A stretch of DNA of 44,326 nt from a virus, in the IMG/VR virus record IMGVR_UViG_3300043399_000365, positions 1 to 44,326 of that record; one strand, written 5' to 3'. How positions within the stretch are numbered: the stretch's first letter is position 1; each line of letters begins with the position of its first letter. A program made the translations under genes and the position numbers. Under the pieces are notes generated by a model. It saw only the letters and a list, made by a program, of their open reading frames with translations, was not told where the DNA came from and searched no databases. This document shows positions 1 through 39,047 of this stretch, piece after piece.

Positions 1-578
1 TTAGCTGAGCGTGGTATATTGGTATACACTAGTAGTAAGTTATCTTGAAGTCTGTTCATGGTCTCTTTACTAACGTTTAATATAGATTTAGAGACCATGT
101 CTTTTGAGAACTTGAATAGGTTTAAACCACCGATAGCTGCTGCATACTGATCTTGTTTTCCTACTGGATACTCACATCGATTCATCTCAATGTTACAAGC
201 TTGTTCAGCAAGCACAGTAGAATCAGAATAATTCTTTAAGCTATTTATCAATCCGACAGTAAAAGATGATGAGCTGCCGAGTCCTGATCCACGTCCCGGG
301 ATGTCTGATATAGACGCGACATGTAATTTATTCTTGATCTTATACTCTTTCAGAGTCTCACGTGTAATGTCATGTGTCATAGAGTCTAGAGTATCATAGT
401 CATTAATACCATCAAAAGCAGTCACGTAGTTACCCCGTGACTTACTATGAACCATGACGTAGATATACTTGTCGATAGTGACTGAGAGAGCGGCTCCTTC
501 TGCTTTTCTATAGAAAGCTGGTAGGTCACTACCACCCGAAAAGAAACTAATCCTCAGTGGTGTCTTTGAGATGATCAT
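1..578 (-). CDS. hddA: GHMP kinase, D-glycero-D-manno-heptose 7-phosphate kinase-like (HddA), C-terminus cut by window edge
   Basis: The frame opens at an ATG at 578 and stays open to the window edge, giving about 192 residues of a protein expected to exceed 300. The N-terminus MIISKTPLRISFFSGGSD and the glycine/serine loop PGRGSGLGSSSSF (about residues 94-106) are the substrate and ATP-binding signatures of GHMP kinases, in the form seen in HddA. HddA phosphorylates the anomeric position of heptose 7-phosphate to the 1,7-bisphosphate. The start codon overlaps the stop of the glycosyltransferase gene (ATGA), so it is translationally coupled to the sugar cassette. Other sugar kinases of the family (fucokinase-like, galactokinase-like) are possible, but the neighbouring GmhA- and GmhB-like genes favour heptose. 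Confidence 0.8.
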   Translation of the reverse strand, partial: MIISKTPLRISFFSGGSDLPAFYRKAEGAALSVTIDKYIYVMVHSKSRGNYVTAFDGINDYDTLDSMTHDITRETLKEYKIKNKLHVASISDIPGRGSGLGSSSSFTVGLINSLKNYSDSTVLAEQACNIEMNRCEYPVGKQDQYAAAIGGLNLFKFSKDMVSKSILNVSKETMNRLQDNLLLVYTNIPRSA

Positions 579-1567
579 GTGCGATACACGAACTGTTCAC
601 GAGGAAACTTACGACTCTCTTCGGTCGGGTACTTAGACAGCAAGTCCCTAAGCATAGTCTCCCATTGACGCTTGATCCTATCGATACCGAAGCGACTGTC
701 AACGTAAGTCTTGTTAAACTTGACCATGTTTAAGTGATCGTCATTCTTTACGAAGTTGATAGCGGCTTCGAGGTGAGCGTAAAAGATGTTAGCGTGTTCA
801 TTCTTATCCATAGAACCTTGGTACATAACGTTCAGTGAACCAGAAGTATCGGGTAAAGCACCAAGGTTGGGATGTACACAGACTAGACCGGCAGTCATTG
901 CTTCAAGCATTGCTCTACAACTAGTCTCTACCCAAGTGGATGGATAAGCAAAGATATGACATTCATTTAACGTGGATCGTAGAACATCGTTTGGTACAAA
1001 CCCATGATAAGTCATCTGTGGATGATTACGAATCTCGTCGTAAAGTGGCTCGAACTGCTTATCGGCGTTTTCCCACCCATAGATCTTGAAGCTAGAAAAC
1101 ACGTCTAGATGGATATCTGGATACTTTTCTGCCAAGTGTTTGAATACTGGGACTAATATATCCAGCCCACGCTGTGGCGTAGAAGTATACACTAGCCGAA
1201 TCTTGTCTTTACTCTTTACGGTCTCTGGTGCGATGTCGATACCGGACTCAAGCACGATGCTCTTTGAGTCGTACGGAATACCATGAACGAGTTGGTATTG
1301 ACTCATTTGCCAGTTAGAGATGAATACAAACTTATGAAACTTATCCCTGAAAGAAGAGTCACGGAACTTAGCGGACTCAGGATCAGTAGCCAAATCATGT
1401 GCCCAGAACAAACGGATTTTAGATTCATCAAGCTCTCTAGGCCTGGAGCAAATGACTTGAAAGTCATCCAGTAGACTGGGATCGAGAATAGCTGCTAGCT
1501 TTCTCTTAGCTAGCTCAGTACCACCAAACGCGTTCTTTGATACTTCGTTCTCTTCAAACATGCTCAT
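575..1567 (-). CDS. GT-B fold glycosyltransferase, family 4-like
   Basis: A 330-residue cytosolic protein. The GT4-like C-terminal half has VYTSTPQRGLDILVPVFKHL (about 127-146), a PNDVLRSTLNECHIFAYPS segment and the acidic donor-binding motif ETSCRAMLEAMTAGLVCV. The N-terminal FGGTELAKRKL fits the acceptor-side glycine-rich loop. Such enzymes move a nucleotide-activated sugar to a glycan, lipid, protein or modified base; the acceptor cannot be read here. The donor could be the heptose made by the flanking genes. Two in-frame starts exist (1567 and 1561). It overlaps its neighbours on both sides by a few bases, in one operon. Confidence 0.8.
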   Translation of the reverse strand: MSMFEENEVSKNAFGGTELAKRKLAAILDPSLLDDFQVICSRPRELDESKIRLFWAHDLATDPESAKFRDSSFRDKFHKFVFISNWQMSQYQLVHGIPYDSKSIVLESGIDIAPETVKSKDKIRLVYTSTPQRGLDILVPVFKHLAEKYPDIHLDVFSSFKIYGWENADKQFEPLYDEIRNHPQMTYHGFVPNDVLRSTLNECHIFAYPSTWVETSCRAMLEAMTAGLVCVHPNLGALPDTSGSLNVMYQGSMDKNEHANIFYAHLEAAINFVKNDDHLNMVKFNKTYVDSRFGIDRIKRQWETMLRDLLSKYPTEESRKFPREQFVYRT

Positions 1568-2310
1568 CAGATGGTGTATCCTGACTTGATGGCGTCGTCC
1601 CTAAACATCTTGACAGTCTCGAGCGAATAGTCAGTCAAGTTCTTATCTAGAGTTGATAGCTTTTTGATGATGTCTGGCGTCATCGTGATGATGTTACATC
1701 CAGAGAGTTGTGCCTCTACGTAGTTGTATACTTGCCTAGTAGACGCCCACAGGAACTTCACGTTTGGGTTACGTGACAGACCAGAAGCAAGTAACTTATT
1801 GAGTTTAACACACTCTGAAACGACCACACCAGCATTCTTACCGGCATCAGCGATTCGTCCGGCAAAGATCGAGATGATGCTTGGTACTTGACTAGAACCA
1901 ATGGCGTCTAGGACATGCATAGTCTGGTGAGGTGTGAATACAGCCGTGACGTTTACACTCACGCCCTTGGACAGCAGGGTCTTGATGACGTTACTAGTCA
2001 GTTCACCGTTAGTATACGTGACTGGAATCTTTACATACACCTGATACCCATGGTTGTCGCCGATGTCACTGAGCTTCAGTGCTTGCTTAATCATTTCATC
2101 TTCGTCGTCGGAGAATACTTCTAGACTGATGTTGGTGTCTGGTCGATACTCCTTTAAGTAAGCGATAGCGTTATCACAGAAACCCATGTAGTTGGTCACA
2201 CCGGCTGCTCGCATCAGGCTCGGGTTTGTCGTGAATCCCTTGATATTATTATTCTTAGCGGCTTCGACGATACCATTCATCGCCGCGCCATCAGCATAGA
2301 TATCAATCAT
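1567..2310 (-). CDS. talC: Transaldolase (TalC / fructose-6-phosphate aldolase-like)
   Basis: A 247-residue class I aldolase. The visible signatures are FTTNPSLMRAAG near the N-terminus, VYVKIPVT carrying the Schiff-base lysine, VNVTAVFTPHQ and SIFAGRIADAG. Transaldolase exchanges three-carbon units between fructose 6-phosphate and sedoheptulose 7-phosphate. Sedoheptulose 7-phosphate is the substrate of the GmhA-like isomerase encoded two genes downstream in the same operon. Phage transaldolases are known from T4-like cyanophages, where they are linked to the pentose-phosphate pathway; here the context suggests feeding heptose synthesis. ATG start overlapping the upstream gene's stop. Confidence 0.85.
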   Translation of the reverse strand: MIDIYADGAAMNGIVEAAKNNNIKGFTTNPSLMRAAGVTNYMGFCDNAIAYLKEYRPDTNISLEVFSDDEDEMIKQALKLSDIGDNHGYQVYVKIPVTYTNGELTSNVIKTLLSKGVSVNVTAVFTPHQTMHVLDAIGSSQVPSIISIFAGRIADAGKNAGVVVSECVKLNKLLASGLSRNPNVKFLWASTRQVYNYVEAQLSGCNIITMTPDIIKKLSTLDKNLTDYSLETVKMFRDDAIKSGYTI

Positions 2311-2834
2311 GATATATCCTCAATTAATTTGGTTGCTTGTATTAAGTCACTAGCATGATAAGTTGGACTCACATGTACCCACTCGTCTGGGCTCGTATAG
2401 TCATCGTGTGAACAATGTATCGTCTTTAAGTTACTTTTAAAGCCAGCGACTATGTCTTTCCATGTGTCACCCACTAATACACACTCGTCTCTATTTAAAT
2501 CATATTTTTTAATGAAATGCTCGATCATGCCATTATTTGGTTTATAATATTCTGTCCCACGTTCTTGGGCACAGTACACGTCATCGATACCCATATAATA
2601 TAATATGGTCTGAAATATGTCAAACGTTTCTTGAGACATCTTTCCGTCAAGGACGTCTGGTTGATTGGTTACTACTATGAGTCTTTTACCGAGCGTCTTG
2701 AGTGCCCTGATAGACTGAATAGCACCAGGCATAAAAGTAAATTCTTCTACTCTCCAGGGAGCAGTCATCTTTCCGTCGTGATTGACTAAGTGATTGATGA
2801 CTCCGTCCCTGTCTAGAAATACCGTCTTTACCAC
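2307..2834 (-). CDS. gmhB: HAD phosphatase, D,D-heptose 1,7-bisphosphate phosphatase-like (GmhB)
   Basis: A 175-residue HAD-family hydrolase. Motif I DRDGVIN (residues 8-14) gives the nucleophile aspartate, motif II is VVTNQPD, and CVLVGDTWKDIVAGFKSN is the Mg-binding motif IV. The order and DRDGVIN form match GmhB, which removes the C7 phosphate of heptose 1,7-bisphosphate. The Cys/His zinc-binding loop of many GmhB proteins is not seen: the corresponding region reads VYCAQERGTEYYKPNNG. Histidinol phosphatase-like activity is the main alternative. The start is GTG at 2834, inside the last codons of the upstream isomerase gene. Confidence 0.78.
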   Translation of the reverse strand: MVKTVFLDRDGVINHLVNHDGKMTAPWRVEEFTFMPGAIQSIRALKTLGKRLIVVTNQPDVLDGKMSQETFDIFQTILYYMGIDDVYCAQERGTEYYKPNNGMIEHFIKKYDLNRDECVLVGDTWKDIVAGFKSNLKTIHCSHDDYTSPDEWVHVSPTYHASDLIQATKLIEDIS

Positions 2835-3412
2835 GTCGTCTTTTTTACCTGAAGATCGGGGTGTGAGACGATGCAGTGCCAGACTACGGCTTGAAACGCT
2901 TCACTGATCGGCGTCAGTAGAGCTTGATCACATACTGGGATGACACAACACGCGTCTGAATGCATCGCGGCGTAACCATCTGGTTTACCGACTATACTTA
3001 TCACCGCGGCACCGACGTCATGTGCTAGATCAATAGCCCTGATGAGATTGACTGAGATGTTTCGTTCTTGGCTCCCACCGCCGACGGACAGTACGAACAC
3101 ACAGTCGAACTCGTTCAACTTAGAAGTAGAGAGCCATCGTTCAAAGAAGTACTCCCAACCCTCATCGTTGACTCGTGCAGTCAGTTCTGACACGTTATCT
3201 ACTGGGCTATAAGCTTCGACGTCACAAAGCTTGCGAAGGTCATTGACCATGTGTGAAGCGTTAGCAGCTGAGCCACCGACACCAAGGATGAAGACTCGAC
3301 CATCATTATCTCTTACTTGCTTCAAATACTGTACAATAGTTCTGACGTCAGTCCGTGAGACATTGCTAGTAGTAAAACTTACTTCATCGAAGTAATGTTC
3401 AACGAATGACAT
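2828..3412 (-). CDS. gmhA: SIS-domain sugar-phosphate isomerase, phosphoheptose isomerase-like (GmhA)
   Basis: A 194-residue SIS protein. FILGVGGSAANASHMVNDLRK is the first sugar-phosphate loop, FVLSVGGGSQERN the second, and EAFQAVVWHCIVSH near the C-terminus supplies the Gln and His expected in the GmhA active site. GmhA converts sedoheptulose 7-phosphate to D-glycero-D-manno-heptose 7-phosphate, the entry step of ADP- and GDP-heptose synthesis. It sits between the phosphatase and a methyltransferase in an overlapping operon with the HddA-like kinase. The full length agrees with the family (about 190 residues). Confidence 0.82.
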   Translation of the reverse strand: MSFVEHYFDEVSFTTSNVSRTDVRTIVQYLKQVRDNDGRVFILGVGGSAANASHMVNDLRKLCDVEAYSPVDNVSELTARVNDEGWEYFFERWLSTSKLNEFDCVFVLSVGGGSQERNISVNLIRAIDLAHDVGAAVISIVGKPDGYAAMHSDACCVIPVCDQALLTPISEAFQAVVWHCIVSHPDLQVKKTTW

Positions 3413-4107
3413 CAGGAAACCCTCACGTATGAAGCTTTTACGTTACCCTTTTCTAGCACCTTGAACCCCTGAGCGTAGATCATATCCTCGAATCGTTCAT
3501 GATCATACATCCAGATGTCATCAGCCACGAACACAGTGCCCACAGTCGAACGATCTAGAAAGAACTTAGTCTCAAGGTCTACTGCTTCGTTGTGGTGTGG
3601 GCCGTCAAAGAAAACGAAAGCGTACGTATTCTCATACTTCTTGAAATTATTATAAACTGGGACACCATCGGCGAAACGGTTAAAGAACTCTGAGTCTTCC
3701 ATGCAGAAAAACGAGAAGTTTAGTCCCTTGTTATAAGCGTAGTAATAGAGCGAAGGGATGACTCGGTTACGCATACCGTTGTCGTAGTCAAACCTGAGTG
3801 GCTTGGTGATTTCTTTCGAGAGGGGGTCACCCTCGGTAGCTACTCCTGGAACGTGGTGGGTGATGTTCATGTTGGTGCACTCGATCTCGATGTTACCATA
3901 AGGATCGATGCAGAACATCGAGCGATCGGTATCCTGGTTCATTGCTAGTGTATCAATAATAATTTTAGCTGAACCACCGCGACGAGTACCGATCTCGACT
4001 ACTGCGCCGGGGACTCCTTTACACTTTAGTACCGCTCGTTGCAGGATGTCGTACTCTTGACTATCAGTACTAAATACTTCTTCGTCACTGAATCTGATGA
4101 TTCCCAT
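3412..4107 (-). CDS. Class I SAM-dependent methyltransferase in the sugar cassette
   Basis: A 231-residue protein. VVEIGTRRGGSAKIII (about residues 37-52) is the SAM-binding motif I, MFCIDPYG motif II, and YAFVFFDGPHHNEAV with FVADDIWM resembles the metal-dependent small-molecule O-methyltransferases (TylF / Methyltransf_24 type). Position inside the heptose/glycosyltransferase operon suggests methylation of a sugar or glycan, but the substrate is not shown by the sequence. It overlaps the neighbouring genes by one to a few bases. FkbM-type methyltransferase is an alternative class. Confidence 0.7.
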   Translation of the reverse strand: MGIIRFSDEEVFSTDSQEYDILQRAVLKCKGVPGAVVEIGTRRGGSAKIIIDTLAMNQDTDRSMFCIDPYGNIEIECTNMNITHHVPGVATEGDPLSKEITKPLRFDYDNGMRNRVIPSLYYYAYNKGLNFSFFCMEDSEFFNRFADGVPVYNNFKKYENTYAFVFFDGPHHNEAVDLETKFFLDRSTVGTVFVADDIWMYDHERFEDMIYAQGFKVLEKGNVKASYVRVS

Positions 4108-4517
4108 TATGTATTATCCTTTAGTCTGTTTCTTAGTTCTGTCGAACTGTACTGATGATATCGAGGGATGTATACGATCTCGATGTTTAGTAAGTCACAT
4201 ATTTGATGCCCTGTGAGTTTTTGACCCTCGTATTCAGATCCCACGAAACGTCGGTTGATCGCTAGAGTACCCATCATGTTTTCTAAGTCTTGTTCAGTGT
4301 CATACGGCACTATGTAATCGGCATATACTTTAAGCTGAGTGTATCGTTCATACATACTTTGGATAGGCTTGTTCTTCCAATCACGATCAAGTTGTGGATT
4401 TGAATGTAAACCCACAACTAGTTCATCACATCGTTTACTACACTCAGTCAAGAAATGTATGTGTCCTGGGTGCAGTAAGTCAAATGCACCACAGGTAAAA
4501 CCAATCACTTTATTCAT
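4107..4517 (-). CDS. Cytidylyltransferase-like nucleotidyltransferase (TagD / HldE C-terminal type)
   Basis: A 136-residue single-domain nucleotidyltransferase. GFTCGAFDLLHPGHIHFL (residues 6-23) carries the HxGH nucleotide-binding motif as HPGH, and YSSTELRNRL near the C-terminus is the ISTTxxR-type motif. Relatives are TagD (glycerol-3-phosphate cytidylyltransferase) and the C-terminal domain of HldE, which adenylylates heptose 1-phosphate. In this operon the natural reading is the last activation step, giving ADP- or CDP-heptose; this is inference. It starts the run of overlapping sugar genes, with ATG at 4517. Confidence 0.75.
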   Translation of the reverse strand: MNKVIGFTCGAFDLLHPGHIHFLTECSKRCDELVVGLHSNPQLDRDWKNKPIQSMYERYTQLKVYADYIVPYDTEQDLENMMGTLAINRRFVGSEYEGQKLTGHQICDLLNIEIVYIPRYHQYSSTELRNRLKDNT

Positions 4518-4529
4518 AATATATTATCT

Positions 4530-4895
4530 TTAGATTGCTGGTGCTTGACGCTCGAAATAGTTTTGATTAATTGCTTTAGCACCAAAGTATTGCGTGACGA
4601 GCTTAATAACGACTGCAGTATCATATGGCTTGCATGAAAATACATCAAGATACATGGTGTCGTTTTCATCAACAAAATGAGCACAGATGTTGCTCGTCTC
4701 GATCAACTGCAAGAGTGTATATCCGGCTTTGTCACCGGAACCAAACTTGATGATTTGTGGTTCACCGTAAGCGACCATGTCGATGTCTTTAACGAGATGC
4801 TTTGCGAAAGCATGAATAATTGTTGAATCGGTGATCCTGTCATGATCACAACCTGAACAATCAAGAGCTAAATGATAACCCCAGTAAGATGACAT
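4530..4895 (-). CDS. speD: S-adenosylmethionine decarboxylase-like protein, first copy
   Basis: A 121-residue SpeD-type proenzyme. YHLALDCSGCD resembles the family's N-terminal strand, LIETSNICAHFVDEN contains the candidate self-cleavage serine (Ser68), and YLDVFSCKPYDT gives the conserved DxFxC segment. Decarboxylated SAM donates aminopropyl groups for spermidine synthesis. The residue before the serine is Thr rather than the usual Glu, so maturation may differ. A second, more canonical SpeD lies at 39885-40268. Polyamines can neutralise packaged DNA; no spermidine synthase is seen in the window. Confidence 0.75.
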   Translation of the reverse strand: MSSYWGYHLALDCSGCDHDRITDSTIIHAFAKHLVKDIDMVAYGEPQIIKFGSGDKAGYTLLQLIETSNICAHFVDENDTMYLDVFSCKPYDTAVVIKLVTQYFGAKAINQNYFERQAPAI

Positions 4896-20552: not shown

Positions 20553-22526
20553 TTACCCGTTAAATGCCCTGAATGACAAGACGTCTTCTTTCATGGGCTT
20601 TGATTGTTTTGGTTTTACTCTGAGCGTCGTTTTTTCTTGCGCTCTTCTTTCGGCTTCTTTTCTAGCTTTAACACCTATCTCATCGTCTCTCTTAGCGTGT
20701 TTAGATAGAGCGGCTGAACTGGTATCCGGACCTATAGGGATATCCATGTGTTTACGAACGTCGTTGTATAATTCTTTAGCGTGTTCCGGATGTACGGTCG
20801 ATGGTATACCCTTCTTGAACTCACCAAAGTTTCTAGACATCGCGTGTTTACGCATCTTTGATGCAGACATACCAGTAACACCTTCGGCGTCTGGATCACG
20901 TTCACCGGCTGACACTACGTCTATTCGCTTGAAGTTAAAGTCTTTACCAGGACCGTTATACTTATCAAGTATCTTTTTATACTCATCGACACGATCGGAG
21001 CCACCGACCATGATAAGATGGTCTACACCTTGTTTGTGTAGCTTCTTTGCTTGGTGAATGAACGTCGGTGCCTCATCCGTAGCCGCTTCGATGTTTGCGC
21101 TTGGAAACATCCTTTTTGCATGCTTGACTTTGACGTCCGCAGGTAACGGGTTCTTTTCTGGATCTTGCGAGTGTGACAGCACGATAGAATGTTTAGCTTT
21201 ATTAGCATCAGCTAATTCTTTTACTTTATCAACAAGAGCCCCGTGACCGACAGTTGGCGGATTCATGCGACCAAAAGCTAGTACGTGTGGATTCTTCGTG
21301 TCACGTTCTTCTGGCTTAGTGGTCGTATCCAAATCAGTTGGAGCACCCTCACCGCGCCCACGATTATTAGCAAAGTTTAGTCGACTAAACTCAGCTCTAT
21401 CCACTAGCTTAGTCGGTTTACCACCTCGGATAGACACGAATCCTTCGGGCTTTACTTCTTTACCACCGACTGTGTGTTTGAATTCAGTCGGGTTACCTAG
21501 GGCGTTGACTAGTACGTCTTTAGCTTTTTGTAGATGCTTATGTATACCAAAAGTATTCTCAAAATGTTTATGATTATCTTTGATGTCATTGATCAGGTTA
21601 TCGTAAGTAGATGCTTTTTTGTCTTTAGCCGCGGGTGTCTTTACTTTATCTACTTCTTTGTTTCTTTTTTGTTCCAAATGTGACACGTAGTCTTTGACGT
21701 TGGGTTCTGTACCGTCTCTCACCGTCTGGTTGATGTATGGTTTCAGGTGCTCGTCGTGTGTAGCGAGTTTTTCTAGAGCTTCTGGCGGCGTGTTCTTGTA
21801 ATGTTCGGCTGCTTGTATCATATGATCTTGATACTTTCTCTGCATGGCTGTGCTATACCTTGCTGTAGAAGCATCTTTTATTTCTGGATTCACGTGATTA
21901 ACGTCTGGATCTTGTTGAAACTTAGAATGATCCACATCAAACCCGGCTTTCATGTTAGTCAAGTCCTTGCCGGTGTACTTCGTGTGAGTGACAAAACCAA
22001 TTTTAGACGCAGCTATTTTTCTACCCTGGGATGAGTCTTTGTGGGCTGAGTAAGTGATAGTATTTGGTGCAAATTTATAGTGATCACCAGAATCATCTAC
22101 ATCATTTTTGTCATACAAGAAATCACCCTGATAGACGCCACCTTCCTTTGGCATGACTTTTGGGAGATGCTCCAATGCATGCTTTAGTTTCTCAGCTAGT
22201 CCTGGTGCATGCCCATGATTCTTGTCTATGTCTTGTGGTGTATAGTTAATCTTTGGGTTAACATTAAAGACTGATTTGGAACCAACAAAGAACTTTTTGG
22301 TCTCAGGATGAATACCGTAAACTACACTTGGGCTTCCATCATATTTTGTGGTTACTTTTGATTTAGACTTGCCACCAGTAAGAAAAGAATGAAGATCATG
22401 GAGATTGTCAGAAGCATGATTAAGTCCATTAACACCGCCATGAATGATGTGATCTTCCGCATGTTCTAAATGTTTTAATTTGTCAACATCTAGAGATTCT
22501 GTAATGAATGATGAGAATAGTAACAT
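20553..22526 (-). CDS. Fusion of ligase-like nucleotidyltransferase and NMNAT/cytidylyltransferase-like domain
   Basis: A 657-residue protein. The N-terminal part has covalent-nucleotidyltransferase marks: KYDGSP (motif I KxDG, Lys61), GGVYQGDFLYD (motif III, about 129), EGFVSIRGG (motif IV, about 361) and KPTKLVDRAEF (motif V, about 370). The C-terminal part has FGRMNPPTVGH (HxGH-type, 418-428), LIMVGGSDRVDEY and GVTGMSASKMRKH (ISTTxxR-type). This suggests self-adenylylation joined to an NMNAT-like enzyme, perhaps in RNA repair or NAD chemistry. It sits among virion genes. Activities are inferred. Confidence 0.72.
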   Translation of the reverse strand: MLLFSSFITESLDVDKLKHLEHAEDHIIHGGVNGLNHASDNLHDLHSFLTGGKSKSKVTTKYDGSPSVVYGIHPETKKFFVGSKSVFNVNPKINYTPQDIDKNHGHAPGLAEKLKHALEHLPKVMPKEGGVYQGDFLYDKNDVDDSGDHYKFAPNTITYSAHKDSSQGRKIAASKIGFVTHTKYTGKDLTNMKAGFDVDHSKFQQDPDVNHVNPEIKDASTARYSTAMQRKYQDHMIQAAEHYKNTPPEALEKLATHDEHLKPYINQTVRDGTEPNVKDYVSHLEQKRNKEVDKVKTPAAKDKKASTYDNLINDIKDNHKHFENTFGIHKHLQKAKDVLVNALGNPTEFKHTVGGKEVKPEGFVSIRGGKPTKLVDRAEFSRLNFANNRGRGEGAPTDLDTTTKPEERDTKNPHVLAFGRMNPPTVGHGALVDKVKELADANKAKHSIVLSHSQDPEKNPLPADVKVKHAKRMFPSANIEAATDEAPTFIHQAKKLHKQGVDHLIMVGGSDRVDEYKKILDKYNGPGKDFNFKRIDVVSAGERDPDAEGVTGMSASKMRKHAMSRNFGEFKKGIPSTVHPEHAKELYNDVRKHMDIPIGPDTSSAALSKHAKRDDEIGVKARKEAERRAQEKTTLRVKPKQSKPMKEDVLSFRAFNG

Positions 22527-31800: not shown

Positions 31801-31874
31801 TGGAAGGGAGTATAGGAATCGAACCTATATGACCAGATTCAAAGTCTAGTGTCCTACCGTTGAACGAACTCCCT
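31801..31874 (-). tRNA. tRNA-Gln (TTG)
   Basis: Acceptor AGGGAGT pairs with ACTCCCT, discriminator T, CCA encoded; anticodon loop CTTTGAA; T-arm stem ATAGG/CCTAT with loop TTCGATT. 74 nt. Reads CAA codons. Confidence 0.93.
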
Positions 31875-31877
31875 TCA

Positions 31878-31953
31878 TGGAATCCTTGGTGGGACTCGAA
31901 CCCACATTCATCTGGTTTTGCAGACCAGTGCCTAGCCATTCGACCACAAGGAT
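31878..31953 (-). tRNA. tRNA-Cys (GCA)
   Basis: Acceptor ATCCTTG pairs with CAAGGAT, discriminator T, CCA encoded; anticodon stem CTGGT/ACCAG with loop CTGCAAA; T-arm GTGGG/CCCAC. 76 nt, three bases from tRNA-Gln. Confidence 0.94.
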
Positions 31954-31960
31954 TTAACTT

Positions 31961-32074
31961 TTAAGCAGCTGCACTCCATGTAGCTACCGTTACAAACTTC
32001 CAGTTCAGGTAGTAACCCATGACCCAACGATTAGAAGCTGCGTCATACTTGGTGATCATCTTATGGTCAGTCAT
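31961..32074 (-). CDS. 37-residue hypothetical protein
   Basis: MTDHKMITKYDAASNRWVMG, then YYLNWKFVTVATWSAAA. A strong GAGGAGGTG ribosome site precedes the ATG at 32074, which supports expression. Compact and aromatic-rich, with no membrane segment. It lies between the tRNA pair and a 58-codon gene whose stop it nearly touches. Confidence 0.6.
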   Translation of the reverse strand: MTDHKMITKYDAASNRWVMGYYLNWKFVTVATWSAAA

Positions 32075-32075
32075 G

Positions 32076-32252
32076 TCAATTCACCTCCTCAATGATGGGC
32101 TTGCCGATTAGGTTAGCGCGATTCGTGATGGAGCGTGAGAACTCCACTGCGTCCTTAAAGCTGGAAAAGTCTTTCTTTTTCTCTACGAGTCTACCACTCG
32201 CTGATCCGTAGTCAGCGCGCTGAAGCTCATTATACGTGCATGTGTACTTCAT
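32076..32252 (-). CDS. 58-residue hypothetical protein
   Basis: MKYTCTYNELQRADYGSASG, with a basic helix (VEKKKDFSSFKDAVEFSRSI). Its end encodes the ribosome site of the 37-aa gene, so the two are coupled. A sigma70-like promoter lies 28 bases upstream at 32280-32308. Function unknown; probably early. Confidence 0.6.
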   Translation of the reverse strand: MKYTCTYNELQRADYGSASGRLVEKKKDFSSFKDAVEFSRSITNRANLIGKPIIEEVN

Positions 32253-32279
32253 GACACCCTCTCTAGTCAGTACTCAATG

Positions 32280-32308
32280 ATGGTAACACATATTTAGGCG
32301 AAAGTCAA
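32280..32308 (-). promoter_or_regulatory. Sigma70-like promoter for the small-gene/tRNA unit
   Basis: TTGACT at 32308-32303 and TACCAT at 32285-32280, with a 17-base spacer, driving the 58- and 37-aa genes and probably the Cys and Gln tRNAs. Confidence 0.6.
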
Positions 32309-32314
32309 CAGTTT

Positions 32315-32692
32315 TTATAGTCGACGAGACCTAGAACCGAGGATGTTTCCGTCTGACGGGACAGCCACGCCGTAGCCACCCTTGTTATAGAGCTGAGTCG
32401 TCTTAGCGACGTTGTTAAGAACACCACGCTTAGTCGCGTCGGACTCCTTGTACAGGTTACCCATGATAGATCGATCCCTGCCACCATCGACGATCGTGTT
32501 TGACAGCTGAGTGTCGTCACGCTTGAACTTAGGCAGAGCGATCTTACTCTTAGGCTTGTTCTTGAGCTGGTCTGGGTGCACACCGTTCTTCTTAAGCCAA
32601 GCCTCGTGTTCAGCCTTAGCCTGCAGCTGTCTAGCAGTCGGCTTAGACTTATGCGAGCCGATGTTGTTGATGTGAGGCTTAAGAAGCTGCAT
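32315..32692 (-). CDS. Basic hypothetical protein (125 aa)
   Basis: MQLLKPHINNIGSHKSKPTA, then ARQLQAKAEHEAWLKKNGVH, DGGRDRSIMGNLYKES and a final GSRSRRL. It is lysine-rich and could bind nucleic acid. The ATG at 32692 is 14 bases inside the end of the upstream gene. An overlapping 139-codon frame on the same strand has an implausible Arg/Ser/Leu composition and is treated as a shadow. Confidence 0.65.
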   Translation of the reverse strand: MQLLKPHINNIGSHKSKPTARQLQAKAEHEAWLKKNGVHPDQLKNKPKSKIALPKFKRDDTQLSNTIVDGGRDRSIMGNLYKESDATKRGVLNNVAKTTQLYNKGGYGVAVPSDGNILGSRSRRL

Positions 32693-33005
32693 CTGTGTAG
32701 ATCCTCTTGACAGTCGAAGCACAATCGGGTATGATGAACGCAAAGAATTCACGACCTTTAGTGACTATTTCATGACCATAATCCATCTTGACTAAACCAT
32801 CGCCATATTTGAATTGATCACGAATAGCATCAACAAGTGAACCATTAGCAAAACCAAGAACTACAAACTTATTCTTTTGACCAGTAACTACAGCGTCTAG
32901 ATGATTGACGTATTCACCACTAGTCTTCCCACAAGAACAAGTCTTGATTCCTTTAGTACTGAGACTAAACACATCTGAACATGATACACAGAGCAACAGT
33001 TTCAC
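32679..33005 (-). CDS. Zinc-ribbon-like hypothetical protein (108 aa)
   Basis: KLLLCVSCSDVFSLSTKGIKTCSCG has a CxxC...CxC arrangement (residues 6-26) likely to bind zinc, followed by a beta-rich domain (KNKFVVLGFANGSLVDAIRD). GTG start at 33005 with GAGG upstream. A promoter lies at 33043-33070. It may be an early regulatory or inhibitory protein, but nothing in the sequence proves it. Confidence 0.65.
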   Translation of the reverse strand: MKLLLCVSCSDVFSLSTKGIKTCSCGKTSGEYVNHLDAVVTGQKNKFVVLGFANGSLVDAIRDQFKYGDGLVKMDYGHEIVTKGREFFAFIIPDCASTVKRIYTDAAS

Positions 33006-33042
33006 TGAAACCTCATTACTATTACCTTTGCCTCAGTACCTG

Positions 33043-33070
33043 ATTATACACACATCAGGATAAATGTCAA
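33043..33070 (-). promoter_or_regulatory. Sigma70-like promoter for the zinc-ribbon gene
   Basis: TTGACA at 33070-33065 and TATAAT at 33048-33043, with a 16-base spacer, 38 bases before the GTG start. Confidence 0.72.
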
Positions 33071-33073
33071 TAG

Positions 33074-33274
33074 TTAATAGCGAGGATAATGCCTATAGTA
33101 GTGGGGCCGATAAACCGGACGCGGTACGTAATATACCGGGGGTGGGACGTAGACCGGGCGAGGAACATAAACCGGGGCTGGAGCGACATAGGTCGAGCCA
33201 TAGACACCGGGCTGAACCTCGACGGCACACGCAGACACCATCAGACCGGCTGCAAATACGAGAATCTTCTTCAT
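33074..33274 (-). CDS. Pro/Tyr-rich small lipoprotein (66 aa)
   Basis: MKKILVFAAGLMVSACAVEV shows a lipoprotein signal with lipobox VSAC (Cys16). The mature part is a string of PVY/P-R-P units (VPRPVYVPPPVYYVPRPVYR) ending with HYYRHYPRY. It is likely anchored in the outer membrane with an extended, basic, aromatic chain. A role in superinfection blocking or envelope association is possible but not shown. AAGGAAAA precedes the ATG at 33274. Confidence 0.7.
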   Translation of the reverse strand: MKKILVFAAGLMVSACAVEVQPGVYGSTYVAPAPVYVPRPVYVPPPVYYVPRPVYRPHYYRHYPRY

Positions 33275-33293
33275 AGTGTTTTCCTTTATGTTT

Positions 33294-33497
33294 TTAAGCT
33301 GGGAGCAGCACATTAGAGTCAACAACAGAATCTACCATGTAGACCCGCTTAAACCATGACCCGTCATGCTTATCTTCTAAGCGATCAAGTTCAAGCAGGG
33401 CCGCTCTGCGGCTGTCAAACCGCTTGATCTTGAACGTCGGCTTTTTAGCAATGTGAATGGTCTCGACCACGACTGCGTAGCGCTTAGTCATGAGCAT
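33294..33497 (-). CDS. Small hypothetical protein (67 aa)
   Basis: MLMTKRYAVVVETIHIAKKP, followed by a charged helix (DSRRAALLELDRLEDKHDGS). Starts at ATG 33497 (AGGA six bases upstream) or 33491. It overlaps the upstream gene end by 14 bases. No recognised family. Confidence 0.6.
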   Translation of the reverse strand: MLMTKRYAVVVETIHIAKKPTFKIKRFDSRRAALLELDRLEDKHDGSWFKRVYMVDSVVDSNVLLPA

Positions 33498-33738
33498 CTA
33501 ACTTCCTCTGAAGAGTGGCAAACTTGCGCTCGAGCAACTTTTTGCAAGAGGCCAGAGAACCGATCCAGTTCACCTTGCTTCCGTGAGAGACGCCGTACAT
33601 GTTAACGGTGTTACGGCCAGAGAGGCCAAGACTGCCGTTCACGATCGTGTAAGGCATCTTGACACCGTTCCAGTACGTATCAAAGTGTCCGTTTGATACC
33701 CTGACCGTCTTGAACATATCAGTCATTCCCTTATTCAT
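33484..33738 (-). CDS. Hypothetical protein at the left edge of hub 1 (up to 84 aa)
   Basis: MFKTVRVSNGHFDTYWNGVK and ASCKKLLERKFATLQRKLDA are the readable parts. Start codons at 33738, 33726 and 33717 are in frame. The promoter's predicted transcription start is close to 33738, so 33717 (MFKTV) or a leaderless start are both possible. First gene of the leftward unit leaving repeat hub 1. Confidence 0.58.
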   Translation of the reverse strand: MNKGMTDMFKTVRVSNGHFDTYWNGVKMPYTIVNGSLGLSGRNTVNMYGVSHGSKVNWIGSLASCKKLLERKFATLQRKLDAHD

Positions 33739-33744
33739 AGTCAG

Positions 33745-33773
33745 ATCCTAACCCATCCGGATAAAAAAGTCAA
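33745..33773 (-). promoter_or_regulatory. Leftward early promoter of repeat hub 1
   Basis: TTGACT at 33773-33768 and TAGGAT at 33750-33745, with a 17-base spacer. Its downstream sequence (CCGGATGGGTTAGGATCTGA) is nearly identical to that of the rightward promoter at 34078-34106, so the two form an inverted duplicate. Confidence 0.72.
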
Positions 33774-33780
33774 CCCAACG

Positions 33781-34030
33781 ATATCAATGGGTTAGCGCTA
33801 AGTGCTTGATCTAATTAGGTTTTTTTCCAGAATTTTTTTGAAAAAAAATTTATGTAAATCATATCAATGGGTTAGGTCTCCAGAGGGATTCTGGTCCACC
33901 TAAGCCCCACTCATGGATGGGATACCCATCTTAGGTCTCTTAGGTCGACGAGAACCCTCGTCTTTAGCTAACCCATTGATATGATTAGGAATGCTTTGGG
34001 TCCTAACCCATTGATATGATTAGGTTTGCG
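33781..34030. repeat. Repeat hub 1: four copies of the ATATCAATGGGTTAG element
   Basis: Plus-oriented copies at 33781-33795 and 33859-33875; minus-oriented copies at 33968-33989 and 34002-34023. The fullest copies share AATCATATCAATGGGTTAGG. Between them are hairpins such as GATGGG-ATA-CCCATC and GACGAG-AACC-CTCGTC. The stretch 33751-34147 has no credible gene and lies between two divergent promoters. Confidence 0.88.
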
Positions 34031-34077
34031 TCTTAAAGCTCCTCTTAAAATTTTTTGGTCGCTCACAAAATGGGTGG

Positions 34078-34106
34078 TTGACATATTTTTCCGGATGGTA
34101 TAGGAT
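34078..34106 (+). promoter_or_regulatory. Rightward early promoter of repeat hub 1
   Basis: TTGACA at 34078-34083 and TAGGAT at 34101-34106 (17-base spacer; TATAGG at 15 is an alternative). Drives the 34.1-35.2 kb early genes. Confidence 0.75.
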
Positions 34107-34147
34107 CTGACTATGAATGAGGCATGGGGCCTCTGCAGGAGACTGTC

Positions 34148-34411
34148 ATGGGTCGCAAGACCTTCAGCGTCAGTGAGCTCACTGAGCTCGTAAACAATAC
34201 CCTGTCCGTCAGCTGGGACAAGCCTGAGTATCGTGAAGGTATGATCGCAACTCTGGAGTATGTGCTTCATGCTACTGGCAACTATCGTGGGTATAGGTAT
34301 CTGACTTCGAACGAAGTTCCAACGGGCCATCAGCCCGGTATTCGTTACGATGATGCAGGTGATAAACATTCGTTCAACGATACCGACTCCACTCGTCGCC
34401 AGTATAGTTAA
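34148..34411 (+). CDS. Conserved phage hypothetical protein (87 aa)
   Basis: MGRKTFSVSELTELVNNTLS, then WDKPEYREGMIATLEYVLHA and YRYLTSNEVPTGHQPGIRYD. The pattern is one I have seen in many unrelated phages, generally first in an early operon, function unknown. GGAG lies eight bases before the ATG at 34148, which is preferred to 34124. First gene of the rightward unit from hub 1. Confidence 0.75.
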   Translation: MGRKTFSVSELTELVNNTLSVSWDKPEYREGMIATLEYVLHATGNYRGYRYLTSNEVPTGHQPGIRYDDAGDKHSFNDTDSTRRQYS

Positions 34412-34422
34412 AGGAGACTAAG

Positions 34423-34521
34423 ATGCTTGCTATCGGACACAAGCGTGCCGCGGCTCTCTTCACTGACCTTTTCATCGTCGGTGTGTTCGTTATTGTTCTG
34501 GTATTTACGGTGGGTATCTAA
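34423..34521 (+). CDS. 32-residue single-pass membrane peptide
   Basis: A short basic head (MLAIGHKRAAAL) followed by one hydrophobic helix (FIVGVFVIVLVFTVGI). AAAGGAGACTAAG precedes the ATG, and its stop overlaps the next ATG (TAATG). A second 32-residue peptide of the same plan occupies the matching position after hub 2 (42961-43059). Function unknown; candidate membrane toxin, holin-like or signalling peptide. Confidence 0.6.
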   Translation: MLAIGHKRAAALFTDLFIVGVFVIVLVFTVGI

Positions 34522-34973
34522 TGGACTTCATTTTTGACATCGATGGAACGGTAGCTGACATCAACCATCGACTCCATCATCTCGAACAGAAACCGGTTGA
34601 CTGGGATGCTTTCTTTTCTAAGATGGATCGCGATAAGCCGATCCTTCCAAGCATCTTCATCATTAGGTCTCTGATCGAGGCTGGGCACACGGTGATCTTT
34701 TGTACTGGTCGCAGTGATAAATATCGTAGGATGACGATCGACTGGATCTACGAATTTGTCTATCCTTACTTCAAGGATAACATGCATCTATACATGCGTA
34801 GAGAAGGTGACCGACGACCAGATACTGATGTTAAGCTAGAACTTCTGCACGAGATGCGTAAAGATGGTCTCAACCCAGAAGCAGTGTTTGAAGATCGCAA
34901 GCGTCTCTGCGAGATGTGGATCGATAATGGTATGTGGGTCTATGATTGTGGAATGGGGAATGGTAACTTTTAG
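34521..34973 (+). CDS. HAD-family phosphatase, polynucleotide 3'-phosphatase-like
   Basis: A 150-residue HAD hydrolase: FIFDIDGTVADIN (nucleophile Asp6, Asp8), VIFCTGRSD (motif II), RPDTDVKLELL (motif III Lys) and EAVFEDRKRLCEMW (motif IV). The layout resembles the phosphatase domain of T4 PseT and other phage HADs that remove 3' phosphates from nucleic acids. A kinase domain is absent. It is coupled to the 32-aa membrane peptide. Confidence 0.8.
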   Translation: MDFIFDIDGTVADINHRLHHLEQKPVDWDAFFSKMDRDKPILPSIFIIRSLIEAGHTVIFCTGRSDKYRRMTIDWIYEFVYPYFKDNMHLYMRREGDRRPDTDVKLELLHEMRKDGLNPEAVFEDRKRLCEMWIDNGMWVYDCGMGNGNF

Positions 34974-34985
34974 CTAGGAAACCAG

Positions 34986-35231
34986 ATGGAACTAGATAGA
35001 GCTAAGTTTGAAGACAACAATCCGGAAGAGTGGATGTTGATAGAACCGGGTGTCTTAAACTTGGTGACTACTGACGTCTGTATAGTGTATCGACCGGATC
35101 ACTCTATCTATTACATCAGATGGAACAATAAACCTGTAGTAGCTAAGGGTATGTACTACTCACTCGAGGGTGCTAAGATCGCAGCACTCTCTTACGTTCA
35201 AGAACTTTTAAACATGGGACTAGAACCTTAA
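34986..35231 (+). CDS. Hypothetical protein (81 aa)
   Basis: MELDRAKFEDNNPEEWMLIE, then VLNLVTTDVCIVYRPDHSIY and a C-terminal helix (LEGAKIAALSYVQELL). No catalytic motif. It follows the HAD gene by 12 bases on the same early transcript. Unassigned. Confidence 0.65.
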   Translation: MELDRAKFEDNNPEEWMLIEPGVLNLVTTDVCIVYRPDHSIYYIRWNNKPVVAKGMYYSLEGAKIAALSYVQELLNMGLEP

Positions 35232-35239
35232 AATTTTGG

Positions 35240-35268
35240 TTGACATATTACCAAAATTGTGGTATAAG
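35240..35268 (+). promoter_or_regulatory. Sigma70-like promoter before the tRNA cluster
   Basis: TTGACA at 35240-35245 and TATAAG at 35263-35268, with a 17-base spacer. It would transcribe the 64-aa gene and the first tRNAs. Confidence 0.75.
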
Positions 35269-35298
35269 TAACTTACAAACTAAATGATGGAGATAAAC

Positions 35299-35493
35299 GT
35301 GAGCGATAATATCGTAGAGAACGCGGCAATTCAGTACCAGGACTACAACGGCGAGTGGAACACGTGTGAGCTACTTGGTCGTTCTAGTATGTTTGAGGTT
35401 TTGAACGCCATGAAGTCAGTACACAGTCGCTTTAATGGTAAGCGTGTTCGTTGTGTCGAACATGATACCGGTCGTCTCGTAGATATTCTTTAA
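35299..35493 (+). CDS. Small hypothetical protein (64 aa)
   Basis: MSDNIVENAAIQYQDYNGEW, then FEVLNAMKSVHSRFNGKRVR. I use GTG at 35299 because GGAG lies seven bases before it; the ATGs at 35284/35287 would sit almost at the predicted transcript start with no ribosome site. No family recognised. It leads directly into the tRNA cluster. Confidence 0.6.
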   Translation: MSDNIVENAAIQYQDYNGEWNTCELLGRSSMFEVLNAMKSVHSRFNGKRVRCVEHDTGRLVDIL

Positions 35494-35502
35494 CTAATTT
35501 AT

Positions 35503-35582
35503 GGATCACATGCACTCACTGGTGTGTGCGGCGGGCTTTTAATCCGTGTCTTTGCAGAGTTCGATTCTCTGGTGATCCTCCA
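35503..35582 (+). tRNA. tRNA-Lys (TTT)
   Basis: Acceptor GGATCAC/GTGATCC, discriminator T, CCA encoded; D-stem GCAC/GTGC; anticodon loop CTTTTAA; T-arm CAGAG/CTCTG with TTCGATT. 80 nt. Confidence 0.9.
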
Positions 35583-35604
35583 CTAAAGACGAGCGTAGAA
35601 TGCG

Positions 35605-35776
35605 AACTCTTAGTATACTAAGAGTTATTGCCGTGCGATACGGCTAGTCTTGCAATCTATGGCGAGAGCAAAGACAGTCGACGGGCTGTCTCAAGGAAGT
35701 CGTTCCTTGGGCTGATGGATGAAGCCTTCCGCTCAATGGGCGGAGACAGAGGGTTCAAATCCCTCCTCTAACGCCA
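35605..35776 (+). ncRNA. Structured RNA A with a canonical T-arm but no matching 5' acceptor
   Basis: Closely packed hairpins: a 22-nt perfect palindrome (35605-35626), GCCGT/ACGGC (35630-35644), GTCTTGC/GCAAAGAC (35647-35675), CAAGGAA-GTCG-TTCCTTG (35692-35709), CCGCTC-AAT-GGGCGG (35729-35743), then a textbook T-arm GAGGG-TTCAAAT-CCCTC (35749-35765) followed by CTCTAAC, G and CCA. No GTTAGAG-like 5' strand exists upstream to close a tRNA. TCGACGGG near 35678 recalls the tmRNA 5' domain, but there is no tag frame. Confidence 0.5.
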
Positions 35777-35790
35777 CACAATTATAATAA

Positions 35791-35867
35791 TCCTGGTCGG
35801 ACACAAGGTGTGTCAGCAGACTGTTAATCTGTTCATCAGGTTGGTTCGATTCCAACACCAGGAGCCA
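35791..35867 (+). tRNA. tRNA-Asn (GTT)
   Basis: Acceptor TCCTGGT/ACCAGGA, discriminator G, CCA encoded; D-stem GACAC/GTGTC; anticodon loop CTGTTAA; T-arm GTTGG/CCAAC. 77 nt. Confidence 0.94.
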
Positions 35868-35871
35868 CTCT

Positions 35872-35946
35872 GCTCCTAAAGCATAAAAGGTGATGCGCCG
35901 GATTTGTACTCCGGATAATTTGGTTCGATTCCGAATGGGAGCACCA
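35872..35946 (+). tRNA. tRNA-Thr (TGT)
   Basis: Acceptor GCTCCTA/TGGGAGC, discriminator A, CCA encoded; D-stem GCAT/ATGC; anticodon stem CCGGA/TCCGG with loop TTTGTAC; T-loop TTCGATT. 75 nt. Confidence 0.92.
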
Positions 35947-35954
35947 AAATGTTA

Positions 35955-35983
35955 TTGACTATCTTATAGATCTATGATATATA
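35955..35983 (+). promoter_or_regulatory. Sigma70-like promoter for the phosphatase gene
   Basis: TTGACT at 35955-35960 and TATATA at 35978-35983, with a 17-base spacer, 26 bases before the ATG at 36009. Confidence 0.68.
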
Positions 35984-36008
35984 AGATCATACATAATAAG
36001 GAAATAAC

Positions 36009-36398
36009 ATGGGTACAATGAATAGAATTGGAAACGCAGCAAGTCCTTTTCAAGGACAAATCAAAAGGGTACTGTGTGTTTGTTCTGCTGGTCTACTGCG
36101 ATCTCCAACTGCAGCTGTAGTTCTATCTCAAGAACCATATAACTTCAATACGCGAGCGGTTGGTATTTCACGAGAATATGCACTGATTCCACTAGATATT
36201 GTACATCTTCACTGGGCAGATGAAATTGTTACAATGGAACAAGATCATACAGATATTGTTCTTCAACGTCTATCTGATTGCGGTTTGAGTCCTGATTCTG
36301 TAACGATTATTCAACTCAATCTTCCTGACGATTTTGTGTATCGTGATCCTGAATTGATTAGGCTCATCAAAGAAAGATACGATGAAAATAATAAGTAA
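36009..36398 (+). CDS. Low-molecular-weight protein tyrosine phosphatase-like
   Basis: A 129-residue protein. RVLCVCSAGLLRSPTAA has the CX5R(S) P-loop (Cys25 to Arg31) of LMW-PTP/arsenate-reductase folds; NLPDDFVYRDPEL near the C-terminus supplies candidate general-acid aspartates. It would remove phosphate from tyrosine or a small molecule in the cytosol. Such proteins recur in phages with unknown targets. AAGGAAA ribosome site before the ATG; flanked by tRNA genes and served by its own promoter. Confidence 0.8.
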   Translation: MGTMNRIGNAASPFQGQIKRVLCVCSAGLLRSPTAAVVLSQEPYNFNTRAVGISREYALIPLDIVHLHWADEIVTMEQDHTDIVLQRLSDCGLSPDSVTIIQLNLPDDFVYRDPELIRLIKERYDENNK

Positions 36399-36405
36399 GA
36401 CTATT

Positions 36406-36479
36406 AGTCCTGTAGCTCAATTGGATTGAGCACCAGATTACGAATCTGAGGGTTGGCGGTTCGAGTTTGTCCAGGACTA
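36406..36479 (+). tRNA. tRNA-Arg (ACG)
   Basis: Acceptor AGTCCTG/CAGGACT, discriminator A, CCA not encoded; D-stem GCTC/GAGC; anticodon loop TTACGAA; T-arm GGCGG/TTGTC with three G-U pairs. 74 nt. Confidence 0.88.
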
Positions 36480-36489
36480 TCAATATCTT

Positions 36490-36566
36490 GTCACGGTCTT
36501 CTAATTGGCTAGGAAACCAGACTTTCATTCTGGATAATGCGAGTTCGACTCTCGTCCGTGATACCA
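36490..36566 (+). tRNA. tRNA-Glu (TTC)
   Basis: Acceptor GTCACGG/CCGTGAT, discriminator A, CCA encoded; anticodon stem CCAGA/TCTGG with loop CTTTCAT; T-arm GCGAG/CTCGT. 77 nt. Confidence 0.9.
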
Positions 36567-36569
36567 AGT

Positions 36570-36699
36570 TTGTGGTAAGTAAAGTCTACCTAGCTCGGTC
36601 TGCAGGCGATACATGGTAGAGTAGATCTGATCAGTCTATAAAAGGAGAATGGGCACTTCAGCTCTTGCGAGTCAAGAAGAGATACCTCACCTGCCACAA
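36570..36699 (+). ncRNA. Structured RNA B between tRNA-Glu and tRNA-Trp
   Basis: A 130-nt segment closed by TTGTGG (36570-36575) and CCACAA (36694-36699). Inside are CTACC/GGTAG, TAGA/TCTA and CTCTT/AAGAG helices. There is no T-arm, anticodon arm or reading frame of note. It lies exactly between two tRNAs and is probably released by tRNA processing. Confidence 0.42.
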
Positions 36700-36709
36700 T
36701 ACTGATCTT

Positions 36710-36783
36710 ATGGGTGTGATGTAACGGTAGCATAACGGCCTCCAAATCCGTTTGTCTGGGTTCAAATCCTAGCACCCATGCCA
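36710..36783 (+). tRNA. tRNA-Trp (CCA)
   Basis: Acceptor ATGGGTG/CACCCAT, discriminator G, CCA encoded; anticodon loop CTCCAAA with one C-T mismatch at the base of the loop; T-arm CTGGG/CCTAG. 74 nt. Confidence 0.88.
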
Positions 36784-36788
36784 ATCTT

Positions 36789-36874
36789 GGGAGAGTATTC
36801 GGCTAAGGACGCCGACTGGTCTGTAAAACCATGGCCTTTGTGTTGACAGGGTTCGATACCCTGATCTCCCACCA
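36789..36874 (+). tRNA. tRNA-Tyr (GTA)
   Basis: Acceptor GGGAGAG/ATCTCCC (last pair G-A), discriminator A, CCA encoded; anticodon loop CTGTAAA; long variable arm; T-arm CAGGG/CCCTG. 86 nt. Confidence 0.88.
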
Positions 36875-36876
36875 AT

Positions 36877-36992
36877 ATCATCTTAAATAGTTCCGGTTCT
36901 ATTAAGATGATTAGTAAATCGGATGCTGTTATATTATATGGGGATATAGCATAAGACAATACTTTCTGTTATTCGGTGAGTATATCCCATAT
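36877..36992 (+). ncRNA. Structured leader/RNA C: two strong hairpins after tRNA-Tyr
   Basis: Hairpin 1 (36877-36911): 13 bp with one bulge, loop TTCCGGTT. Hairpin 2 (36936-36992): 12 bp with a bulged G, closing a 32-nt loop, ending 15 bases before the SpoU methylase ATG. No T-run follows either, so terminators are unlikely. This may be a 5' leader regulating the methylase or a separate RNA. Confidence 0.45.
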
Positions 36993-37006
36993 CCTTAACT
37001 TGTAAG

Positions 37007-37582: not shown

Positions 37583-37593
37583 GGATTTATACT

Positions 37594-38223: not shown

Positions 38224-38227
38224 ACAT

Positions 38228-38302
38228 GCTGGGTTAGTATAAAGGCTATTATGCTAGGTTTCCACCCTATAGATACGAGTTCGAGTCTCGTACCCAGCTC
38301 CA
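38228..38302 (+). tRNA. tRNA-Gly (TCC)
   Basis: Acceptor GCTGGGT/ACCCAGC, discriminator T, CCA encoded; anticodon loop TTTCCAC; T-arm ACGAG/CTCGT. 75 nt. Confidence 0.9.
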
Positions 38303-38327
38303 ATATTTGCAAATAAGGAATGAATAT

Positions 38328-38852: not shown

Positions 38853-38872
38853 TAATAGAGCTTTATATTGAG

Positions 38873-38899
38873 AAACCCACCCTAACCGGTGGGTTTTTT
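38873..38899 (+). terminator. Intrinsic terminator after the outer-membrane gene
   Basis: AAACCCACC and GGTGGGTTT form a 9-bp stem with a 6-base loop, followed by a T-run. A new promoter starts within two bases of its end. Confidence 0.88.
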
Positions 38900-38900
38900 A

Positions 38901-38931: not shown

Positions 38932-38936
38932 TTTTT

Positions 38937-39029: not shown

Positions 39030-39047
39030 CATCATTAAGGGTATATT

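Follow-up and report, generated by a model that had tools for sequence, protein, structure and literature searches.

Whether a virus can carry its own enzymes for making an activated heptose from central sugar phosphates is the question raised by one end of IMGVR_UViG_3300043399_000365, a virus fragment of 44,326 bases that was analysed over its whole length and is called the window here. At positions 3-4517, on the minus strand, seven head-to-tail open reading frames (ORFs) follow one another in the order NT-MT-SIS-HAD-TAL-GT4-GHMP, with successive start/stop overlaps of 1, 1, 7, 4, 1, and 4 nt. Judged from its sequence, this operon probably equips the phage to produce a nucleotide-activated heptose of its own. 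From the edge of the window inward, the genes are:

3..578, minus strand: HddA-like GHMP kinase (GHMP), amino acids (aa) 1-192 of 327, with the remainder in contig L093:1510-2493
575..1567, minus strand: GT4-type glycosyltransferase (GT4), 330 aa, a core gene of the phage lineage and predicted user of the heptose donor
1567..2310, minus strand: transaldolase (TAL), TIGR02134-like, 247 aa, predicted sedoheptulose 7-phosphate synthesis
2307..2834, minus strand: HAD-IIIA phosphatase (HAD), GmhB-like, 175 aa, GTG start, predicted heptose-1,7-bisphosphate 7-phosphatase
2828..3412, minus strand: SIS-family isomerase (SIS), GmhA-like, 194 aa, predicted sedoheptulose-7-phosphate isomerase
3412..4107, minus strand: Methyltransf_24/TylF-like methyltransferase (MT), 231 aa, PF13578 E 1.4e-7
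4107..4517, minus strand: HxGH nucleotidyltransferase (NT), 136 aa, with a TagD-like fold and a predicted role in heptose-1-phosphate activation

The proposed route

Heptose activation, as put forward in the initial annotation, is the best reading of this GmhA/GmhB/HddA-like set with its E/K/F transaldolase and invariant residues. The substrate, nucleotide and acceptor, like every reaction and its stereochemistry, we infer from the gene set and its order, its conservation, the active-site residues and the type of nucleotidyltransferase. The transaldolase would combine fructose 6-phosphate and erythrose 4-phosphate of the host into sedoheptulose 7-phosphate, the substrate of the predicted isomerase. 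The HddA-like kinase would then add the 1-phosphate (alpha, by analogy with HddA), and the HAD enzyme would take off the 7-phosphate. The stand-alone HxGH enzyme, in place of HddC, would couple the heptose to a nucleotide, for which CMP drawn from CTP is the likeliest candidate. The GT4 enzyme would then transfer the sugar to its acceptor, in all likelihood a glycan of the host envelope.

The seven overlapping genes described in the initial annotation are present as drawn, with overlaps of 1-7 nt, and their families agree with Pfam, where matches above the curated cut-offs are to GHMP_kinases_N, Glycos_transf_1, TAL_FSA, HAD hydrolase, SIS_2, Methyltransf_24, and CTP_transf_like. Every operon match to the specific NCBIfam models falls under the equivalog cut-off. 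The kinase ORF is truncated at base 3 by the end of the window, and contig L093, which is 100% identical to positions 1-2087 (2,087 nt), completes it to 327 aa.

Scans of IMG/VR returned 153 relatives of the isomerase (80 loci kept), 13 of the NT and 55 of the kinase, and synteny was counted over 62 distinct isomerase relatives. About 50 distinct phage loci share the order NT-SIS-HAD-TAL-GT4-GHMP, with identities that fall to about 45-55%. Direct neighbours among the 62 are SIS-HAD (54), HAD-TAL (50), NT-SIS (46), GT4-GHMP (44), and TAL-GT4 (43). Between the window and its close relative L002, dN/dS is 0.02-0.12 for every gene, so the cassette is under strong purifying selection. Because the same neighbours recur in order and dN/dS is low, the gene set is not a chance assembly. 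All catalytic residues tested are invariant, over 58-69 sequences per protein. The carriers are a group of uncultivated T4-like phages. Some cassettes are partial, such as those at L008-L011, which lack the phosphatase, transaldolase and kinase, and natural partial cassettes, of this kind or without NT, suggest that the donor may be supplied by either host or phage. Loci L037, L059, and L061 carry SDR and GFO/IDH/MocA oxidoreductase genes between the transaldolase and kinase, which suggests a further change to the sugar there.

Kinase, isomerase, phosphatase, and transaldolase

By sequence the kinase is clearly HddA-like, and the resemblance of the isomerase to GmhA, of the phosphatase to GmhB, of TAL to transaldolase, and of the NT to TagD/HldE is more distant. 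In the Protein Data Bank (PDB) the full kinase finds the HddA-type structure 4n3o best (E 6e-39), with 3k85 and 4usk also matched. The HddA model NF049969 scores 68 bits on the fragment in the window, and S103, D143, and G276 are invariant (69 sequences). The PfkB-type heptose kinase of the ADP-beta-heptose route (HldE) is not what the phage carries, the kinase being a GHMP enzyme, and an HLDE profile (PfkB plus NT) retrieved NT genes only among the phage ORFs. Phage kinases form a single clade apart from bacterial kinases (SH-aLRT 98), and therefore one old acquisition fits.

The isomerase matches SIS_2, scores 45.8 bits on the gmhA model (cut-off 209), and matches GmhA 5i01 in the PDB (E 1.6e-7). 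It belongs to an SIS subfamily distinct from GmhA, in which H54, D58, E171, and H179 are invariant (65 sequences). The phosphatase matches the models PRK06769, histidinol-ppas, and GmhB, the GmhB models under their cut-offs, and its best PDB matches are GmhB structures (3l8e, E 9e-9). Its HAD-IIIA motifs are intact, with D8, D10, K98, D123, and D127 invariant (58 sequences). The transaldolase matches TAL_FSA (E 9e-42), TIGR02134 (236 bits against a cut-off of 282) and solved transaldolases (E 2e-11), and D7, E64, K94, F149, and R152 are invariant (62 sequences). Its E/K/F active-site type (E64, the Schiff-base lysine K94, and F149) is that of the transaldolase 1wx0, and these active-site residues indicate a transaldolase rather than a fructose-6-phosphate aldolase. 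The GmhA, FsaA, HldE, and TagD positions were placed with reference sequences of E. coli and B. subtilis; PDB-based alignments likewise show the transaldolase residues and the arginine of TagD.

A bacterial module with HddC

The isomerase subfamily extends to bacteria of many phyla, with at least 574 confirmed candidates, of which 80 loci were kept (L137-L216). Within 8 kb of these 80 isomerases lie a transaldolase in 71 cases, a HAD phosphatase in 60, and a GHMP kinase in 48. The initial annotation had taken the transaldolase as the phage's own substrate route; the gene is there, but with a transaldolase near 71 of the 80 isomerases it is part of the bacterial module, which rules it out as a phage-made extension. 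A limited literature search found no account of bacterial heptose operons with a transaldolase. Between the bacterial kinase and isomerase lies an HddC-like PF00483 enzyme of GT-A fold, found in 43 of the 48 kinase-bearing loci with a profile built from that gene, and 25 kinase-bearing loci have the exact order GHMP-HddC-SIS-HAD-TAL. Ten other bacterial loci have an HldE-like PfkB/NT fusion and no GHMP kinase. Since HddC accompanies the GHMP kinase and the PfkB/NT fusion occurs without it, bacteria combine each type of kinase with its own type of nucleotidyltransferase.

Canonical GHMP-HddC modules are also present on three faecal scaffolds labelled "UNVERIFIED" and "Bacteriophage sp." (L226, L227, and L228), which may be bacterial sequence misfiled as phage.

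The HddC profile found no match among the phage ORFs. PF00483 was absent from 14 clade contigs of up to 168 kb, mostly incomplete, whereas all 14 control genomes were positive. It was likewise absent from the complete genome of the cultivated Caulobacter phage Cr30, in which the kinase, isomerase, GT4, and HxGH enzyme are present. An HddC to the left of the window was not found: the L093 continuation, past the kinase, contains neither HddC nor a further transferase, and none of the 14 contigs has HddC, though some of them, being incomplete, may carry one at a distance. The pairing of an HddA-type kinase with an HxGH rather than an HddC-type enzyme, which had been noted from the window itself, is thus real and is the main point, as bacteria pair this kinase and isomerase with HddC. 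By its sequence, the phage cassette would be an alpha-heptose module in which the activating step has been swapped to an HxGH enzyme.

The nucleotidyltransferase and its nucleotide

The NT matches CTP_transf_like in Pfam (E 2e-13) and, under cut-off, TIGR02199 and TIGR01518, the HldE-C and TagD models. By sequence, its PDB matches are cytidylyltransferases and TagD. The AlphaFold model (mean predicted confidence, pLDDT, 93.6) has the fold of TagD-type cytidylyltransferases, with TagD 1COZ as its best structural match (Z 17.5, rmsd 1.8 over 123 residues), followed by the CTP-using Fom1 CyTase (Z 15.8), S. aureus TagD (15.1), and HldC (14.8). The HxGH histidines H16 and H19 are invariant, as are R58 and R119 (61 sequences). 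Heptose nucleotidyltransferases (the HENase of Tang et al.) are described as carrying an (F/L)xxGxSTT motif (PMC11461863, PMC11573728). This is absent from the phage NT, which instead has R119-x-H121-x-(Y/F/W)-S124-(S/T)-(S/T); compared with RTEGISTT of TagD, its RYHQYSST retains the R and differs in the remainder. CTP is favoured as the nucleotide, at about even confidence, and CDP-heptose is an unproven best guess at the product.

The glycosyltransferase slot and the acceptor

The GT4 protein matches Glycos_transf_1 (E 1e-11), and E214 and E222 of its EX7E motif are invariant (66 sequences). Neither it nor the MT found a match in the PDB, and a GT4 structure model made without an alignment (pLDDT 39.8) was not used. 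Homologues in annotated phages are few: the T4-superfamily phages Cr30, phiM12, phiN3, phiM7, phiM19, DLP6, RHph_I1_18, and Ochrobactrum OC, besides two pelagiphages and distant metagenomic matches. Gene order in phiM12 runs glutaredoxin, WYL_2/DUF2693, GT4, an unknown gene, a c10-like gene, RNase H, and PhoH; in the clade of the window it runs glutaredoxin, WYL_2, the heptose genes with GT4, c10, RNase H, and PhoH. RHph_I1_18 has a similar slot. Because the same slot is occupied in heptose-less phiM12-type phages, GT4 is the older gene at the site and the heptose genes surround it. Their arrangement suggests that a supply of donor was assembled around a transferase already in place. The assignment of GT4 to the cassette was thus right as to presence and adjacency, but the gene belongs to the older core of this phage lineage and is not specific to the cassette. 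Its acceptor is most likely a host envelope glycan, with virion or DNA possible; for T4-like pelagimyophages, published views favour modification of the host O-chain (PMC7029224).

Weighing the alternatives

Several findings count against activated heptose as the product of the operon. The isomerase, phosphatase, and NT are far under the NCBIfam equivalog cut-offs, so their substrates could differ. In the isomerase the predicted metal ligands are altered from those of GmhA (E65 to D58, Q172 to E171), the positions being kept. The NT family is not specific to heptose: Acinetobacter and Vibrio phages encode close relatives that have no heptose genes nearby, and the assignment of its substrate here thus rests on gene linkage. 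The cassettes at L012-L024 have no NT, in one case across 95 kb. We know of no HxGH enzyme that acts on alpha-heptose 1-phosphate. It is conceivable, if unlikely, that the phage route stops at heptose 1-phosphate and that HddC or HldE of the host finishes it, with the NT making another activated compound such as CDP-glycerol. The NT relatives just mentioned, another beside GDP-mannose genes in a cyanophage, the glycerol-3-phosphate enzyme TagD as the nearest solved fold, and the loci that retain the other genes without NT all fit this. Another product for the NT is, however, hard to reconcile with its position immediately before the isomerase in 46 of the 62 distinct loci, with L122 and L127, where NT, GT4, and GHMP stand together and the isomerase is not nearby, or with Cr30, which keeps kinase and NT and has no HddC.

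The altered metal ligands and separate subfamily of the isomerase would also suit a different seven-carbon or related sugar, of other stereochemistry or a modified heptose, as would the oxidoreductase insertions of some relatives and the nucleotide-sugar epimerase of Cr30. We regard this as doubtful, as the kinase closely matches HddA-type structures and the transaldolase indicates a start from sedoheptulose 7-phosphate. Attachment of the sugar to virion proteins, tail fibres for example, has a precedent in bacterial protein heptosylation (PMC11461863), but no structural gene adjoins the cassette in the loci read and GT4 lies among replication genes, which makes it quite unlikely. The same position of GT4, beside RNase H, PhoH, and polymerase in a slot kept in phiM12-type phages, would favour a DNA glycosyltransferase, with the cassette supplying heptose for a hypermodified base. 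Modified, restriction-resistant DNA has been reported from rhizophages, myoviruses included (PMC6992544), and L222, the 168-kb contig of L101, encodes a T4 gp42-type dCMP hydroxymethylase (about 61% to Citrobacter phages). Yet the hydroxymethylase was not found in the 13 other clade contigs, the window, Cr30, DLP6, RHph_I1_18, or Ochrobactrum OC, and the ThyA-family proteins of Cr30, phiM12, and RHph_I1_18 have the thymidylate-synthase Asn, so this role is very improbable. With the hydroxymethylase in one contig only, hydroxymethylcytosine-based DNA glucosylation is rejected as a general role. A bolder version of heptose activation, to which we would give little weight, is that the HddC-replacing HxGH enzyme and the lineage GT4 serve an undescribed alpha nucleotide heptose (CDP-alpha-heptose or similar) that is placed on an acceptor of the phage's own, virion or DNA, and not on host lipopolysaccharide.

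Relation to known systems

The four-step logic and the HddA-type kinase of the phage cassette are those of the GDP-alpha-heptose (HddA/HddC) pathway, for example Cj1423-1425 of Campylobacter jejuni (PMC10680097); the phage differs in having an HxGH enzyme instead of HddC, an isomerase of a different SIS subfamily, and its own transaldolase and GT4. The bacterial GHMP-HddC-SIS-HAD-TAL operons (L149, L153, L155, L185, and others) have isomerases 48-57% identical to that of the phage, and their phosphatase, transaldolase, and kinase belong to the same families. These operons retain HddC, lack the phage GT4, and have a different gene order. The survey of NDP-beta-manno-heptose enzymes across kingdoms by Tang et al. 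(2024), as cited in PMC11461863 and PMC11573728, reports viral isomerases, kinases, and nucleotidyltransferases, and describes the phosphatase as absent from viruses. The HxGH transferase is common to those enzymes and the cassette, but the phage NT lacks their (F/L)xxGxSTT motif and the phage kinase is GHMP rather than the PfkB of HldE.

Among annotated phages, a tblastn search with the isomerase gave no match, and its relative in Cr30 (24%) was found by profile only. Cr30 has the isomerase, HddA-like kinase, GT4, and HxGH enzyme of the cassette (gp006, gp008, gp009, and gp178); on a circularly permuted genome, the NT would lie at a distance of about 5.5 kb. Unlike the cassette, it has an extra nucleotide-sugar epimerase, no HAD or TAL adjoining the kinase, and no transaldolase found in the genome. 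Cyanophages SynMITS9220M01, for which heptose genes have been published (PMC7378029), and Bellamy likewise have HddA-like kinases in sugar clusters, but there the kinase is paired with an HddC-like PF00483 enzyme and the transaldolase is distant. Viral heptose enzymes and cyanophage heptose genes are thus already known; new are a module that is complete and conserved and includes phosphatase and transaldolase, the counterpart of this module in bacteria, the change of nucleotidyltransferase type, and the constant position of GT4.

Neighbouring genes and other features

The MT had been counted as a cassette member, which holds in the window but not across relatives. Only in 4 of the 62 distinct loci, the closest kin of the window, does it separate NT from SIS, and it is elsewhere or absent in the others; it is a mobile neighbour that perhaps O-methylates the sugar. 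Upstream of the cassette by 12 nt is the following gene:

4530..4895, minus strand: S-adenosylmethionine (AdoMet) decarboxylase, SpeH-like, 121 aa, AdoMet_dc E 3e-20

This gene is near the cassette in 39 of the 62 loci and probably has a separate function; speH has been reported from freshwater SAR11 phages (PMC7029224). Beyond the kinase, L093 carries a small unknown gene, then a T4-type RNase H and a gene of cluster c11, on the PhoH side.

Elsewhere, L096:14594-16374, 3′ of the cassette, holds an LpxH-like phosphoesterase gene and then a second GT4-like gene, both named by eye. ORFs at L093:7600-9900 read as repeated IPDLIPDL and NQVMNQV peptides, resembling tandem DNA repeats. Window positions 20553-22526 encode a 657-aa protein with phrog_455 and a cytidyltransferase domain, to which phiM12 gp296 (labelled NMNAT/Nudix) may be related, and positions 31801-39700 contain 11 tRNA genes (two minus, nine plus).

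Implications

If the proposed route is correct, these phages would turn central sugar phosphates into an activated heptose with viral enzymes, among them a transaldolase of their own and the phosphatase that has been described as lacking in viruses. With an HxGH enzyme in the place of HddC, the donor is predicted to be unusual and is perhaps CDP-alpha-heptose. The constancy of GT4, set against the variation of the donor genes that surround it, suggests that this phage lineage tailors the sugar for one transferase.

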